From Antedon mediterranea (lineage: Eukaryota > Echinodermata > Crinoidea > Comatulida > Antedonidae): a stretch of DNA of 64,000 bases. The DNA is taken from assembly GCF_964355755.1 (NCBI RefSeq), contig NC_092679.1:19024932-19088931 (forward strand). The letters are read 5' to 3'. This document shows, in pieces, positions 17,323-30,200 of the stretch (position 1 is its first letter; each line of letters starts with the position of its first letter). The notes beneath the pieces were generated by a model, which saw only the letters and a list, made by a program, of their open reading frames with translations, was not told the DNA's origin and did not search any database. The position numbers and the translations under genes are program-made.

Positions 17323-20300
17323 CTATTTTTTAGAACAGTCTAACTCGACATAATTCATTTCGGACTTGGCCTTCAATATTTCCGTTACAGCATCTTTCCG
17401 ACCAATCTTCTCAAAAATCTGCTGGAGATGCAACCAGTCTTCGGCATCGTTTCTCGAGCGAGTAGCTTCCCACGTGTTTAGTAATTCATACGTTGGACTG
17501 CCGTGTTTTTGTTTTTCTAGTTTTGGTATCATATCATCCAATTCTAATTCGTGAGCAAACATTCGCCAGTCAACCAAGCCGTCTGGGTCCAGGAGTTCCT
17601 TTAGTGTTCGCCGTAGAGGTTGTTTAAGTAGCACAGACGATCGCATCGGAATCGCCTTCCTTTTTATCATTTTGTCCTCATTCTAAAATTTAAAGTAATT
17701 ATATTTATGATTACGTAATCTAAGTATAGTGAGTGAAATTGACCAATCACAAAGCGACAATTCGGGTGTCCATCGCGTTGTTATTTTGAAATTACTTGCG
17801 GTGCGCTTTTATTTTCAGGTCCCAAAAATAGAAATAGACAATGATAACATACCTCTTGCGCTAGTATATGAAGTGTTTCTTTTAAGTCATCCGATTGGCC
17901 AGCCTGAGTCACATGAACACTTCCAACTAAGCTGTTTTCAATAATAGTGTCTCTCTTTAGCAACATGTAGGATTTTGTTACGTAGAGGTTTTCCCGCAAC
18001 GTGTCCGCCGGGATAGTCTGCAAAAACAAACATTTGTATTATTTTATTTTGATCGCCATATTCATAGACTATCGGTATGGTTAAGCATTGCAGTAATGTG
18101 TACTCATTAAGAAGGTTAACTCGCCTCTTCGCAAACTCGTCCATTGTAGACAACAATATTTGTAATGTCTGTATGTTTATATTTCTTCAAATGGCATGGC
18201 ACTGTTACATTATTATGGTCCTTATGTAGAAAGTGTATGGAATTCTTGATGGCATGTAAAAATATTTGCTTATGTAAAAGAAAAACAATTATATTAAATT
18301 AAGAATCTTACTAGCTTCGGATTTCTTGTTGTCCAATTATTTTCAATTTCCAATAAACTGGTTGCGTCAAGATTTGTTTTAAATGACCATGTCGTAAAAG
18401 GTGTTCTTTTCACTCCATTTATACTTTCCTCTTCACACGCAACCATCTGCGAATTAAAAATCATCAGTATATATTAAAGCTTTCTCTATAATTCTCTTTT
18501 AGAAATAAATAAATATCTTAAACAAACAAATCATATTTTTTTATTTCTTTTTAAAATTTGCTTTTTGTTAAAACCCGTAAATCATCTGGGATTTCATTTT
18601 ACATCTTTGCACTAGAATACCTGATAGAATGTGGTCCTACATTTGTTATATTTTGGTATATACACATTTGTTCTCGTCTGTGACCTTGTTGAATGGCCAA
18701 GCAACAGAGTAATCATTTCGTTTGGACTTTTTGCCAAAAATATAAATGGTTTATTGACAGTTTCCTTTTAATCAACTTTATTTTCTATGTTCTGGCGGTT
18801 CCAACACATTTTTAAATAAAAGATAAATACAATGAGTTGAACTTACTTGTATTGCATCTGCAGTTTTATGAACAAAGTACAGTCTTAATATCATCCGGGT
18901 AGCAGTAGCTTGAACTAAGGAACTGTACACAACTAAGTTCATGTATATTTCCGCTGGTAGATCTGGACTGGTCGATGTTGCAATGCTCGAAAACCCTGTA
19001 AAATGTGATATCAATATCGAACACCGTCCTCGTCTTTTGATGACCAAGACATCCTCTTCTTCATCTAGGCTCTTATAGTCTAAATTTTCATTAGGTCGAG
19101 AAGAGGTAAACATAGGAACCAATTTGGTGCTTGCGTCATCGATGTTCGCGCAATGTTCATATGAAAGTATGACACGCTCAAGAAAACCAATGCCCTGCGG
19201 ACCGCAGAAGATTGTTGGACCCACTCGAGCCTGAGTGAGATCGATAGAAGGCATATACTGTAAATCCTTAGCAATATACATATATATCAGCTTAGCTTCT
19301 CCTTCGATTGCTCCCGGTGGTACGAATAGTCGGATGCCCATGTGATCCATATTTAACATCCCTCCTTGTTCATCAAACAAACCAGCAATGAATCTGGTCG
19401 TGGTGAAACAGACTTCATGTAAATTGGCATCGCAATGGCGCTGTTTCCATTCTTCGGCTTGAGAAATTAAATCATCATATTCAGTGTCATTTGAAGTAGG
19501 CAGCACGGAAGTTTGTGGCACAGAATCTTCCTCTGGTACCATGTCAATAATTACAGGGTTATCATAAGAAGCGTCACCACCATCAAACGCGGTTGATACT
19601 CGTCCTGTTGGTAGCTCTCGTATTTTGGTTACCTTACTTGAGACTCGTTCTCTGAAAACACGCAGTGCATCTGAATAGCGGTTCACCGAATCATGTCCTT
19701 GACTCCTTACCGACGCTCCTCCTTCTACCTAAGATAATTTAAGTAATAAATACGCGTGTTGTTAATTTCAGTGGGTTTTCGTAGATCACGTGATCATTAT
19801 ATTAATATACATCTTTTTCCTTCTGCTTGTTTCTGAATCTGATTCAAAGATACCTTTATCAACTATACTGTTATGAAGTACGCACATTGTATTAATGACA
19901 TTTTCAAAAACGGGTTTGGCACTTACGTCCGGCATAACAGTGCTATCTTCAACGAATACATGTCCAAACTTCTCGTAAATCCACGTACAACAACAATTTA
20001 CCTGTTTTGAAACGAAAGTAAATAATACAATAAGTCAAATACAACATACTGTAATAGTACCCCTCTCCCCTCCCCGTCAAGAAAAAGAAAAAGGAGAACA
20101 ACACTATTTATGGAAAATTATTATGTGGACATTTCCTGTGAAACGAACAATGAGAACTGTTTGTATTCACACTCGGTAAATCACAAGTAGATACCTCTAT
20201 TAAGGGGGCACCGAAGTTAGGTCCCAAAGGTGTCCAATTATGGGTTCAACTGTAAACAAGTCAGACTTAGGGGACATCCAATTAAAGTGAAACTATTGTT

Positions 20301-20468
20301 GCACAGCATATGTTTGACCGAAATCTGTTTTAAAAAACATCATAAAACCCTCACATAAAAAGTGTTACTTGCCTTATATATAAAAATGAAGCTCAATACA
20401 ATTAGAATAAAAACACCAACAATACAAAGAAGAACGATGGCCCACTTAGGGAATTGTTCACTCTCCAT
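17323..20468 (-). CDS. UNC5CL: UNC5CL/ZUD-like membrane-anchored ZU5-UPA-Death protein, 570 aa
   Basis: Read on the - strand, coding exons are 20373-20468 (within exon 20373-20498), 19927-20001, 18847-19728, 18312-18446, 17853-18017 and 17323-17682. All introns are phase 0. The N terminus is eight residues (MESEQFPK) followed by a transmembrane stretch (about 9-30), then a juxtamembrane Cys triplet (NCCCTW) that could be palmitoylated. A ZU5 domain lies at about 164-300 (LFVPPGAIEGEAKLIYMYI), ending in ISHFTGF. A UPA domain lies at about 315-450, and a C-terminal Death domain at about 470-555 (LLDPDGLVDWRMFAHEL, WLHLQQIFEKIGR). This is the cytoplasmic half of UNC5 netrin receptors, but no Ig or thrombospondin modules are seen upstream. 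That matches vertebrate UNC5CL, which signals to NF-kB and JNK rather than binding netrin. The first intron uses a GC donor. If further 5' coding exons exist, the protein could instead be a UNC5-type receptor. Confidence 0.85.
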
Positions 20469-20530
20469 TATTCCATTCAACGGCGAAGAACACAGGTCCT
20501 AATGTATAAAAAAAGTATTGTATTATTAAT

Positions 20531-21110
20531 ACACAGACGTCGTATCTAGATGACTGTCAATAGTCAGTTACAATATACCTAGTGACAGCAGAAGACTCGT
20601 ATCTAGATGACTGTCAATAGCCAGTTTCAATATACCTAGTGACAGCCGCAGACTCGTATCTAGATGACTGTCAATAATCAGTTACAATCTACCTAGTGAC
20701 AGTTGCAGACTCGTATCTAGATGACTCTCAATAGTCGTTACAATCTACATAGTGACAGCCGCAGACTCGTATCTAGATGACTGTCAATAGTCAGTTACAA
20801 TCTACCTAGTGACAGCCGCAGACTCGTATCTAGATGACTGTCAATAGTCAGTTACAATATACCTAGTGACAGCAGAAGACTCGTATCTAGATGACTGCCA
20901 ATAGTCAGTTACAATATACCTAGTGACAGCTGCAAACTCGTATCTAGATGACTGTCAATAGTCAGTTACAATCTACCTAGTGACAGCTGCAGACGCGTAT
21001 CTAGATGACTGTCAATAGTAAGTTAAGATATACCTAGTGACATCTGCCAACTCGTATCTAGATGACTGTCAATAGTCAGTTATAATCAAACTAGTGACAG
21101 CTGCCGATTA
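20531..21110. repeat. ~57-bp minisatellite, ten copies, UNC5CL-like intron 1
   Basis: Unit includes CTCGTATCTAGATGACTGTC, AATAGTCAGTTACAAT and CTACCTAGTGACAGC. Copies diverge by a few bases each. Starts 30-40 bp upstream (gene sense) of the exon at 20373-20498. Confidence 0.9.
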
Positions 21111-21466: not shown

Positions 21467-22048
21467 TAAAGCCTTGTCTACACTATCAAACTAGTTTTAC
21501 AAAATGTTTGACGGTGCCCAAATATGGTATAGTGATCTGATGCCATTTTGTCCATATATCAATTTAATTCAATTTCTATTTATTTCGAAAATATCACCCA
21601 TATTAATAAACTTATAAACAGAAAAAGAAAAATCGTAAACTCTAAACTTAAGTATATAGAATGCTTCTCAGCTCTTGGAGGTATGGCGAGCATACAAGCA
21701 ACAAGGATGTTACCACTATTCAACATACGTTGCATTTAACCCTAGGTAGATTTTCGCATGTACTCATTAAAAGAAGGGACACCATGTTCAATAAACATTG
21801 CACTGGCAGTACTACTTCTAGAGACATTAAGTATATTCTTCTTCTTTATTGTATCAAACAAAAAAACAATTTAATACAAAAGGTAGCCAAGGTATAGCCG
21901 AAGCTAATCAAGCTTGGTACCTTTTACCTTAACTAACTTAAGCTACAAAATTAACAAATAAATAACAGAACTTAAAAGAAAATAAAAATTTGATAACGTC
22001 AAAGAATATGGACATATCATATAGTTTGACAGTGTAGACAGAGCTTAA
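21467..22048. mobile_element. MITE family M1, copy 6, split by a ~440-bp insertion
   Basis: Left end AAAGCCTTGTCTACACTATC at 21467 and right end TTTGACAGTGTAGACAGAGC ending at 22048. The central part is replaced between about 21558 and 22005 by an unrelated insert that begins with AATTCAATT and TTTATTTCG words, like the simple-repeat tail of a LINE or SINE. Lies in the large first intron of the UNC5CL-like gene. Confidence 0.65.
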
Positions 22049-23024: not shown

Positions 23025-23150
23025 CTTAAAAATTACACCTTCTTCAATGCTAGGCCTAGTTCCATACACAGGACAGACTCTCTACGGACAAAGACTAAAA
23101 GCCGCTTTTGCGATTACAATAAATGCCCACAAGTGAATGCAGCAGAAATG
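23025..23150 (-). other. Probable 5' untranslated exon of the UNC5CL-like gene
   Basis: On the - strand this stretch ends in a clean splice donor (AAG then GTAAGT, junction at 23024/23025), placed to join the acceptor before 20498. In the frame that continues into the next exon it is open only back to a TAG near 23093 and has no ATG. Translation would therefore start at the Met at 20468. The upstream limit shown is arbitrary because the transcription start cannot be seen. An alternative is an internal coding exon using the CCGTAG acceptor, which would add about 22 residues plus more exons elsewhere. Confidence 0.4.
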
Positions 23151-23487
23151 AAAATTGTGCTGGAAAAATACTCTTTTCACACTTGAGTGAACATTCTGCA
23201 ATAAAAGCAAAATTTCGAATATGATATCCTTGAAATGAATTTCTTTATGCTCTATTTAAATGTGTATTTAGGAGACAATTGTTTTCACAGCTCCGGAATC
23301 CATGGCCTTTTTGTTTATAAATATATACAATCAACGTGGACCCAAATTATATACGAGACGTAACGTAATTACGTAGTTATAATTATATGATTACAATACA
23401 AACAAAAATCTCATCAAAATCATTAAAAACGCACATAAAATAATTCATGCGTGCTACATCTGCATTGGCTATACTTTGGGGAATGTA

Positions 23488-24222: not shown

Positions 24223-27200
24223 ATGGTCGTTGTGGAAAAAAATGGAAATGCTGATGCTGTCGAAAGATCAAATGGAGCCAGGCCCGGTTCAGCCAGTACT
24301 TCCAACGGGCACAGATCGGATGAAAGCCCCGGGAGCAGTTCCGATGAAGAACATGGTTTGTTCATACTTCTTGACTTCAAAATTTCAAATTATCGTTATT
24401 TATTATTACGCTGTTTACTATTTGTACACAATTTTTTATTTTTTAAAATCAATACATTAAGTAGGCCTAGGCCCTAGGCCTAAGTCTGGTCCTTATTTTA
24501 ATTATGTGATGTGCAAAAAATTGAAATAAATGAGGTCAATCAATTCAAGATATTTATTAGAATTTTACCTAGGCCCTACTTATACTGTAGCTCTATCATT
24601 GAATGAAAGGGAGGGGGGTAGTCAGCTATGCAATGCAGATGTTCACATCAGATCAGAACTGCCAATTGGCAGGTAAAATATAAAATAAAGTTTTAATTGC
24701 TTTGGTGACTATAGTATTAGTAGTAGTAGGTTTACAACAATATGATATCGATCGCATTTGAAATCAGTCGTATTAGCACTGAGCAGATGCAGACATTTCC
24801 CAATCATCACTTCTATTTTAATTTCTTATAAAAATATTGATAAATTTAACATTATTTGCACACTTAATGAAGCTTCCATATTGTAAACGTGCAAAGTACA
24901 TCGACCTAATTTCTTTCATTTTTCATTTTAAATTAGATCCCCTTTCCGCTCTGGAAAAACAATTAGAAATCACATTGTTTTTTCTGTGGTATTAATAACA
25001 AAAATATGGTTCTTTCAACTTCCTTATTCATTTTTAATCCTTTGTCTTTATGTCGTCAAGATATTTCAAGCGTTAACCAATTTTAATAAATTTCATAAAA
25101 GATTATTTTGTTAGTAAATTATATATTTATAATAATAGTAATAATTAATACACACAGACAAAATGTGAAAGAAATATTATGAACACTGGTAATTTTTTAG
25201 TTGCAAAAAATACTAGATACTGTAGTACTACAAGCCTTCTGCAAAGTAGTAACTATAAAGTAGTAAAAGTAAAAAATACAGTAGCTCCAAATAAAGAAGA
25301 ATATTATAAATTGAGAATTTCACACTTCGATATTTTGGTCATGTTCATGAAAATGATCTGTAATTTAATGTAGAAGAAATCTGGATCAGATCCGAATTTG
25401 TTTCATTTTTCTTTTAAAATTATATCGGGATTCCTTAACCAGAAAGAAATAATTAAATTTTTTTTGGAAATGGTAAAATATTGTAATTTTCCTGACTTCC
25501 TTGAACAAATTGTGGACAAATCCTCACTTATGTCCACACAATTTTTGTAAACTCCATTTTTTTATCATAAAGAAAATACATTTATTGCGTATCTGCCTTT
25601 AAAGCTCTGTCTACAGTATACAACAAAATGGGATTTTTTACTACAGCCATATATGGACATGATGATGTCATATCACCACCATATTTAAGCATATATCACC
25701 ACCATATTATTTAAGCATACACAGTATCACTAACATATTTAAGCATACACAGTATCACTAACATATTTAAGCATACAGTATCACTACCATATTTTTTTGT
25801 CAAACTAGGTGGATAATGTAGACAGAGTTTAACAATACTGATACAAAGCAAAGTTCAGTACCTACTGCATATTCAGTGCCATAACACTGAGGCCCTTGGG
25901 TTTAGCCAGTGAGCACTCATAGCCATTAGGCCACTGTGTATTATTCCTGCTGTTCCAAAATTCCTACTTAGGGGACACCCTTTAAAGGACATGCTTTGTT
26001 AGGTCCCTTAATAGATGTTCTACTGTATCTTTCTAATTGGTACAACATTTATTTCTTTTTAAGAGCCTGGAATGAGAATCGGTGCTGAATACCAAGCAGT
26101 CATACCAGATGTCGTTGAAAGTAAGTTCAAAGTTCATACTACTCTTTATCAGGGGAAATAGATTAGAAGTTTAGTAATAATAATAATAAATAATAGTAAT
26201 TACAGTATAAGGCCTTCCAAAAAAAAACAGAGCGGCATACATACATCAAATACATAAAATGATAAATCTTAAAATTATACGCATTAATTTTATTTTGTAT
26301 TTTACTTAAATTATTTAATAAAATTATTTGTAAATTTCCCTTCTAACTGTCGGGGAACATTCATTAAAAACTGGTGACCAATTTTAGAATAGGAGACACA
26401 CAGTAGTTTTGTACATGAAGTAGTATATTGCCTGGAGGTTTTCTCAACAGTTCAAACAATCATCTACAGTACCTCTGTCCTACCTATAAGTTAGTATAGT
26501 ACTTTCAACCAACTAATGAAGGCCTTATATTTTCTTACCTTACTGTTACTCACAAATAGTTGATGTGTCGTTTCTTTCTTATAAGTTTGAAATATTGAAT
26601 TTCTATCGCAGTGTTATTGTTAAAATGGTGAAAGAAAGCTGGTAGTAACTACTGTAAATCTCTGAAACCAGTACAGTAATTGAATAACAATGATTAAATA
26701 TTAACATTTACTATAGAGTAATCTAAACAGGGAGTTGTAAAATAAAAAATATAAAATATTTTACATCCTCCCTGGTCTAAATCTCTGTCTACACTATTAT
26801 TATTAACTGATTTGACAAAAAAGTGTGATGTACCCAAATATGGTAGTAATATGATCATCATGTCCATATATGGGCACATCACATTTTTTTTGTCATATTA
26901 TAAAGTTTGATAGTGCAGACAGAGCTTTAGACTTACTTACTACCAGCTACCATACAGTGTGAACTTCAATGTGAGTTTGCCAGACAAATAAAATGTTGTA
27001 CAGTAGAACTCAAGTCTGTTGTAATGTTACTGGCTAATTAGGAAAAATTACATAAAAAACACCTACACAGAATTAAAGTAAATACTTACTGAACAATGAA
27101 ATTAAAGCCACCACAACATGCCCACTTTGTGAAATAAAATGTTATTGTTATATTTGTTCAAATAGGAAGAATTATCCCTTCATCACTGAACAATAACCAC

Positions 27201-30200
27201 AATGTGAATTGATAATAATCATATTACGGATCTTAGTAGTTTGTTGTGAGGGAAGCAATCCACAAAAATCAAATTGTAAATAGAAACAGTACGTGATAAA
27301 TCAAAGTTTAAACATAATTAATTGAATGATAAATTGGTGGAGAATTATCAAAGTGCAGTGACTAAACCGTGCTGTAAAAATCAAATAAAGAGGAATAGAT
27401 ATCCTTTTATGATGCAATATGTACTTTACTATGCCTACTGTGTATTATTCAATCTGCCTTTGTTGATTTATGTGCAAGCAACCATATACTATTTTATTTA
27501 CCATACAGTAGATTGCTATATCCACTCTTACCCTTATATACTGTACTGTAGCCAATTTACATAGAAGAGCAGTAACGTAAGCGGTAAACCACATAGCTTG
27601 TACCATGTAGAATCTGTATCTATCTTGAGCAGAAACAGCCCATCCTGTCCGTGTTGTGTGTAAATGGTCATAAGGAATAACATAGATTCTATATTTTTAT
27701 TACCATTACCTCTTGTCTTTGTAAATTGGCCTTAAACCTAAATAATCATGTCTGCTTTTCCAAAAAGTCTGTTTTCAGAATTCTTGAAACAAAAAATATC
27801 CCTATTCAGCAGACACACCTAATTGCTGTATGGGGACACTTTCCTGTGAAACTATTCAAGGAACACCCCTTATAGGGGTAAGGTTCTATACAAATGTATT
27901 TAATTTAGTGTTATTAATTTACATGTCACATGTAACACAATATAACTACAACTGATTTTTCAACACACTGCCTTTAGTGCACAAACTTTAAGAATTGGGC
28001 ATTATAGTATATTGTAATTTTTTGGGTTTTTTTTATACAGCGTCTGGACCTATGAAAACAGACTCTCGTCCTGAGGCACTACTTGTATGGGCACCGTGTA
28101 TGGATGTATCGGAAGTTAAACGTAAATAACAGTTCTACAAATTTATTGTATTTTGTGTCTAAACTAATATTCTTTATTTATGTGAAATCAAACGGTAAAA
28201 TTGGATAAGGAGGTGAATAAAAAAACTACAAAAAATAAAGTTTTTGGAGATGACTTGCAAAAATAACCATTCATTCCAATTGAAGTGTAATGTAATTGTA
28301 CAGTATTCTTGCATACTGATATTTATTTAAAAGATTTTAAAAAAAAAACCAGATCAAAGTTTAATAATTCAATATGTTTTTTGTTCATTTGGTATTGTAG
28401 AAGTTGATTCGTGGGTGGATTTTCATTTCTAAATAATTTCTAAATATTACCTCGACTTACTTAACAGTGTAACAATGCTTAAAACAGTTTACTTCAAATT
28501 TTTACAATAGGTACACTGTACCATTTTGTACTACAGTAAAAATCTAGATCAAATGAGGCTTTTATCACATTGGAAACTGGGGTATGCCCAAATACGGTAG
28601 TGATATGGCATCATGTCCATGTATTGATAGGCACATCACATTTTTTTGTTACACAAAGTTTGATAGTATAGAAAGAGCTTTAAGATGCAAACATGTACAC
28701 AAACTTTTGCCTTCTCACATGTCAGTCCTTAACATTGTGCCATTCTTTTTGTTTACTTCAGTTGATGAATACATTCACGTTGCTAAGGAGAAGTATGGTT
28801 ACAACACAGAGCAGGCACTTGGCATGTTGTTCTGGCATAAGTACAACGTTGCTAAATCACTCGCCGATCTGCCAAACTTTACCCCCTTCCCAAGCGAGTG
28901 GACGGTCGAAGACAAGGTTTTGTTCGAGCAGGCGTTCAGCTTTCACGGCAAAAGTTTTCACAGAATACGACAAATGGTAATTACTTTAAAGATATTTTCA
29001 CACTTTATACTTTTTATCTATTAACTCGACCAAGGATAACAAGAGAGGGTGCTTCTCAAAAACTGAAATTACATATCACTTTTATTGTCAAAATGTAAAA
29101 TATTAGTAATAATAACATTGATCAACTTATATGACAAAAAGACCAAATAAAAAGCCGCTTTGGATTTGGCCTTGTAAAAATGAAATACAAAGTAATTATT
29201 TAACAGACACTAGAAAGTTATTAAATGAATATAGCATATATGTAATACTTACACATAAAATAAAAATTAGATACAAATAGATTTCAGGGAATACTGTAGG
29301 ACAGTAGAACTGATGACTACTAAAAATAACCTAAGAACAATATTTGGATAGTAAATAATGTTGAACTTTAATTGTAAACATTTTTTTTAATGAGATCAAT
29401 CTTAAAATTCAATATTAACCACTTGATTTTAATATTTGTTTTTTGACAGCTTCCTGATAAATCTATCAGCACTCTTGTGAGGTACTATTACCAATGGAAG
29501 AAAACAAGAACAAGGACTAGTTTGATGGATAGACACGTACGCAAGCTTGCCCTCGCCCAGAAAGAGAACGAAGAGTAAGTAGTAGACCAGAATTATAATG
29601 CCAAAGGCATTGTCACTGTGTTCCCTCAGCTGCCTAGAAAAAAAAATGGAATATGACCATATAAAACCATTATGTATCCAATATTTTTACTTTTTGGGCA
29701 AATTATGTAGAGAATTTATCATTTCTTTTACATGGAATTGATGCTAGAATTTTATAGTTAGCAAAATTGGTGAAAGCTTCTAATTTTGGCATCTTTTATA
29801 AAAGCGAAAAAGTTACCTTTTAATGTCCCTCTATGATTTAAAAGGTAAATCTTAAAGCTCTCTCGACACTATCAAATCATGATGCTGTTATGTCACCACC
29901 ATATTTGGGCACATTACACTTTTTTTAAACTAGTTTGATAGTGTAGACAGAGCTTAAGTCACTGCACTTTGATAATTCTCCATGAATTTATCATTCAATT
30001 AACTATGTTTAAACTTTGATTTATCACATACTATACCTATTTACAAGCATATCACTACCATATTTAGGCACATCACTACCATATTTGGGCATATCACCAC
30101 CATATTTGGGCAAATCAGTTTGTCAAACTAGTTTGATAGTGTAGATAAAGCTTAAGATTATGAAATGTTATTTGTTTATAGGGATGAAAGTGGTGAAAAC

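Follow-up and report, generated by a model that had tools for sequence, protein, structure and literature searches.

UNC5CL (ZUD) is known from vertebrates, where it signals via IRAK kinases to NF-kB and JNK. It combines an N-terminal anchor, with no Ig/TSP1 ectodomain, with a ZU5-UPA-Death tail, and presumably carries an HFS motif at the end of its ZU5 domain. The netrin receptors UNC5A-D have the same tail behind an ectodomain with Ig and TSP1 modules, while PIDD1 has LRRs and two ZU5 domains ahead of its Death domain.

It was reported that PIDD, NLRP1, and CARD8 cut themselves at an HF/S or SF/S site at the end of ZU5, that the Phe of this site is essential and is replaced by Leu in UNC5B, and that the nucleophile of such self-cleavage may be Ser, Thr, or Cys (PMC3210808). 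UNC5C-like genes have been named in oyster hemocytes (PMC13070813) and in a clam (PMC4769524), and an invertebrate gene of the UNC5CL type is therefore not new in itself.

The gene described here lies in a window of 64 kb (the whole stretch of DNA that was analysed) from the crinoid Antedon mediterranea. It most probably (a probability of about 0.62) encodes an N-terminally anchored ZU5-UPA-Death adaptor that belongs to a three-gene clade of its own, apart from both the true UNC5 gene on C6 and an UNC5CL-like gene on C3, and that would act in the manner of UNC5CL, PIDD1, or NLRP1. What was less to be expected is an anchored clade that stands apart.

Gene model and domains of the predicted protein

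The gene comprises six exons on the minus strand (20498-17323), which form a single open frame of 570 amino acids. AG is present at each acceptor and GT at each donor with the exception of the first, which is GC (ATAAG/gcaagt), and every intron is in phase 0. The features of the coding region are as follows:

20373-20498, minus strand: exon with the ATG (20468) and the transmembrane segment (20376-20444), GC-AG donor (gene model)
19927-20001, minus strand: juxtamembrane exon of 75 bases, opening VNCCCTW, with three cysteines side by side (gene model)
18847-19728, minus strand: exon with a linker, ZU5 (19120-19383), the HFT motif, and the opening part of UPA, at about 18948 onwards (gene model, Pfam, alignment)
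18997-19005, minus strand: His299-Phe300-Thr301, aligned with the place where PIDD, NLRP1, and CARD8 have their HF/S and SF/S autocleavage sites (alignment)
18312-18446, minus strand: second UPA exon; the intron 5' of it has the position and phase of an intron in the species' own UNC5 (gene model, alignment)
17853-18017, minus strand: third UPA exon; the intron 5' of it likewise has the position and phase of an own UNC5 intron (gene model, alignment)
17323-17682, minus strand: final exon, with the Death domain (17374-17610) and the stop codon (gene model, Pfam)

From the predicted start at 20468 the product opens with MESEQFPK, and these eight residues are followed by the transmembrane segment, just as the original prediction had stated. 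Because the N-terminus ahead of the helix is so short, an N-out, C-in orientation would be the natural topology. The domains follow one another in the order ZU5 (residues 173-260), UPA (about 318-451), Death (476-554). Pfam detected the first of them at E=2.8e-19 and the last at E=2.7e-10, over its cut-offs and far past chance, and these E-values led to the rejection of chance open frames as an explanation. A pseudogene was also considered and rejected, as the six exons are intact, their phases consistent, and the paralogues constrained.

The original prediction of a full ZU5-UPA-Death tail thus stood for its two ends and needed another method for its middle, since the Pfam UPA model gave no match at E<=1 in the 570-residue product; the same model scores over its cut-off in the C6 UNC5 and in the C3 gene. 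UPA was seen by profile-profile comparison only: an hhalign run of the window gene plus both paralogues against the C3 gene, the own UNC5, and rat UNC5B gave 96.9% (E=1.6e-10, score 63.8), the highest score among 60 column-shuffled controls being 19.7. In addition, the UPA introns of the window gene, after TADAIQ and NPKL, fall in the same column and phase as those that follow NTPDALE and AANYQ in the own UNC5. Each of the two genes has a third intron at the UPA/Death junction, where the alignment is ambiguous. The hhalign match and the coinciding introns indicate that this region is a divergent UPA sharing descent with that of UNC5. On the other hand, the window gene differs from UNC5 in lacking the introns within and right after ZU5 and in Death.

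The nearest solved structure is that of UNC5B, presumably from rat (3g5b, 2.1e-12). Structure prediction for the ZU5 exon alone gave a pLDDT of 32 and was uninformative. In contrast to PIDD1, no second ZU5 and no LRR were found by Pfam in the 570-residue product.

The upstream region and the missing ectodomain

Two further features bear on the 5' end of the gene:

23025-23250, minus strand: candidate untranslated leader exon, inferred from its donor, TTTTTAAG/GTAAGT at 23025/23024 (23250, given here as its 5' end, is arbitrary)
24223-28985, plus strand: RCOR (REST corepressor) orthologue, first part only, the divergent neighbour that bounds the gene (sequence match)

When the leader is joined through its donor at 23025 to 20498, a TAG stands in frame and no in-frame ATG follows ahead of 20468. 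For this reason the leader is plausibly untranslated, in line with what had been proposed for the preceding splice partner. The divergent RCOR neighbour was likewise confirmed: its N-terminal reading frame starts near 24223, and its exon at 28758-28985 (plus strand) matches the solved REST corepressors 1 and 3 at 4e-43. A short tandem array (25671-25794, with periods of 54 and 28 bases) lies inside this first part of RCOR.

Two other elements were observed upstream of the coding region. A minisatellite (20534-21104) with ten copies of a 57-base unit, matching at 90%, ends at a distance of about 35 bases from the transmembrane exon's acceptor, and intron 1 contains a degenerate reverse-transcriptase-like frame (SASAMFIEHGVPSFNEYMRKST; 21742-21870, minus strand) that resembles a frame in another locus of the genome (L053).

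With regard to the ectodomain, no TSP1 module was detected on either strand of the 64-kb window with queries consisting of the own UNC5 TSP1 and a TSP1 consensus, while the same queries recovered both TSP1 exons of the C6 UNC5 locus, at most 12 kb from its transmembrane exon. TSP1 was also absent from the loci of the two C10 paralogues. Neither Ig nor any other relevant Pfam domain was found in ten upstream open frames (21.1-23.8 kb). The predicted lack of Ig and TSP1 exons is accordingly upheld for TSP1 across the window and, for Ig, within those ten frames. Since the Ig search covered these ten frames, the absence of an ectodomain rests mainly on the TSP1 search, the paralogues, and the leader exon.

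A hidden UNC5 ectodomain was rejected on the negative TSP1 search with its working control. That the gene is an UNC5 whose Ig and TSP1 exons were overlooked farther upstream, within or beyond RCOR, appears very improbable. The frame of the exon at 20498 is open back to its acceptor (DLCSSPLNGI), which would formally allow a coding exon upstream of it, and another donor, at 21729, would add 39 open codons; however, that stretch adjoins the reverse-transcriptase relic. The distance at which the C6 control found its TSP1 exons, the presence of an own UNC5 already in the genome, and the short N-termini of the C10 paralogues all speak against such missed exons.

Relatives in the genome and the position of UNC5CL

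In the genome that was scanned (354 Mb, 18 contigs), ZU5 was matched at least 63 times and Death at least 150 times, in many cases within arrays. The Death matches, which occur on C3, C5, and C9 and are often arranged in repeated arrays, suggest a large lineage-specific expansion of this domain in Antedon mediterranea. Many near-copies of a ZU5 gene are also found at C4:13.4-26.8 Mb (for example L010-L014 and L022-L033), 18 rows of which fall in one tree clade.

The true UNC5 gene (C6:19.22-19.25 Mb) has two TSP1 exons, a transmembrane exon, and ZU5-UPA-Death exons. Its product is 42% identical to rat UNC5B, with which it pairs at 100/99; the window gene does not group with UNC5B. The C3 gene (C3:36961400-36963205, plus strand in locus L057) encodes 602 residues from the Met and shares the TM-ZU5-UPA-Death architecture with the window gene, but differs from it in an intronless coding region and a canonical UPA. 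Its missing introns suggest an old retrocopy. A scan of prokaryotic and viral contigs found no relative of the C3 protein.

Two further anchored genes lie on the chromosome of the window gene, at C10:19.88 and C10:24.19 Mb. Identity is 71% between these two and about 32% between them and the window gene. They share with the latter the short N-terminus, the membrane helix, and three phase-0 introns in and after UPA, and are under constraint as a pair (dN 0.16, dS 0.60). The genes at C1:40.0 Mb have ZU5, UPA, and Death domains in a similar exon layout, and no membrane anchor was seen in the stretch of them that was read.

The human UNC5CL sequence used for comparison is not a database entry, and all figures involving UNC5CL are provisional. 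The window gene and the two C10 paralogues form one clade with support of 100/100 and 100/99 (9-row tree). When this UNC5CL sequence was removed, the clade was still recovered at 99/99, with the C3 gene outside. It is the C3 gene that occupies the place of sister to UNC5CL, at 92/95 in the 7-row tree and, provisionally, 100/99 in the 9-row tree. It is 39% identical to the UNC5CL sequence used over 305 residues, compared with about 25% for the window gene, and shares with it the runs FLNNTPCALQ, SEGW, and IWHGKCP. The C3 gene is thus the probable UNC5CL orthologue of this species, a placement to be taken, given the provisional UNC5CL sequence, as a strong lead and not as a test against database entries.

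The original prediction had identified the window gene itself as the UNC5CL/ZUD orthologue, and this identification was not supported. Its architecture is identical to that of UNC5CL, and in the 7-row tree its clade, the C3 gene, and UNC5CL stand on one side against UNC5 at 100/99, which would suit a true orthologue, or a co-orthologue of the C3 gene produced by duplication within the lineage and fast divergence. This grouping falls to 71/78, however, once the C1 genes are added, and the AU test rejects a tree that joins the window clade to UNC5CL and leaves C3 out (p=0.014 with 7 rows, 0.003 with two more genes, 9 rows). The window clade with C3 but without UNC5CL is not formally rejected with 7 rows (p=0.084) but is rejected with 9 (p=0.003). 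With the higher identity and shared runs of the C3 gene also against it, such orthology is distinctly unlikely, and a deeper co-orthology of the whole clade with UNC5CL is possible. The window gene could, on the other hand, be a lineage-specific immune-type ZU5-UPA-Death gene of the C1 kind that gained its anchor independently, its likeness to UNC5CL being parallel. The abundance of ZU5 and Death matches in arrays suits this idea, a tree of ZU5 only places the window clade with the C1 and C2 genes (92/84), and a pairing with C1 is not rejected in the 9-row tree (p=0.24). Yet the full-length tree weakly favours C3/UNC5CL over the C1 genes as neighbour (the same 71/78), and the anchor is common to all three genes of the clade, so its gain is not recent; an independent gain is therefore judged unlikely as well.

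The cleavage-type motif and the proposed mode of action

The reading of the window gene as an anchored adaptor in a clade of its own draws further on the motif at the end of ZU5. HFT occupies the putative cleavage site in the window gene, in both C10 paralogues, and in the C3, C1, and C2 genes, and HFC occupies it in several copies of the C4 expansion, whereas the netrin receptors have HLG (own UNC5) or QLG (rat UNC5B). By this alignment, the ectodomain-less forms keep a cleavage-type motif that is absent from UNC5 receptors. As in PIDD1, NLRP1, and CARD8, a ZU5-UPA unit with an HF/S-type site precedes a Death-fold domain (PMC3210808). The window protein differs from these three in the lack of LRR and NACHT, in its membrane anchor, and in having Thr instead of Ser after the Phe (HFT, compared with HFS in proven cleavers).

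Briefly, the protein, if expressed as modelled, would be held at the membrane by its single helix, with eight residues outside, followed by the cysteine-bearing juxtamembrane stretch and then ZU5-UPA-Death. ZU5 may cut itself between Phe300 and Thr301, and both products would presumably remain associated at the membrane. The UPA-Death part might then recruit Death-domain partners, the counterparts in vertebrate UNC5CL signalling being IRAKs that lead to NF-kB and JNK.

Beside UNC5 and UNC5CL, these genes could, at somewhat under an even chance, represent a third class of ZU5-UPA-Death protein that is anchored, ectodomain-less, probably self-cleaving, and expanded in this lineage, with an anchoring that arose or was kept in parallel to that of UNC5CL. 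The suggestion that an invertebrate UNC5CL type would be old is probably right, through the C3 gene rather than the window gene; because of the former, the type probably predates vertebrates. The co-occurrence, within a single genome, of a true UNC5, the UNC5CL-like gene on C3, and an anchored clade distinct from both implies an old origin and a diversification of UNC5-type adaptors that lack an ectodomain. In addition, since HF[ST] is found in all short forms and is absent from UNC5, the sequences suggest that self-cleavage may be ancestral to the ZU5-UPA-Death tail.
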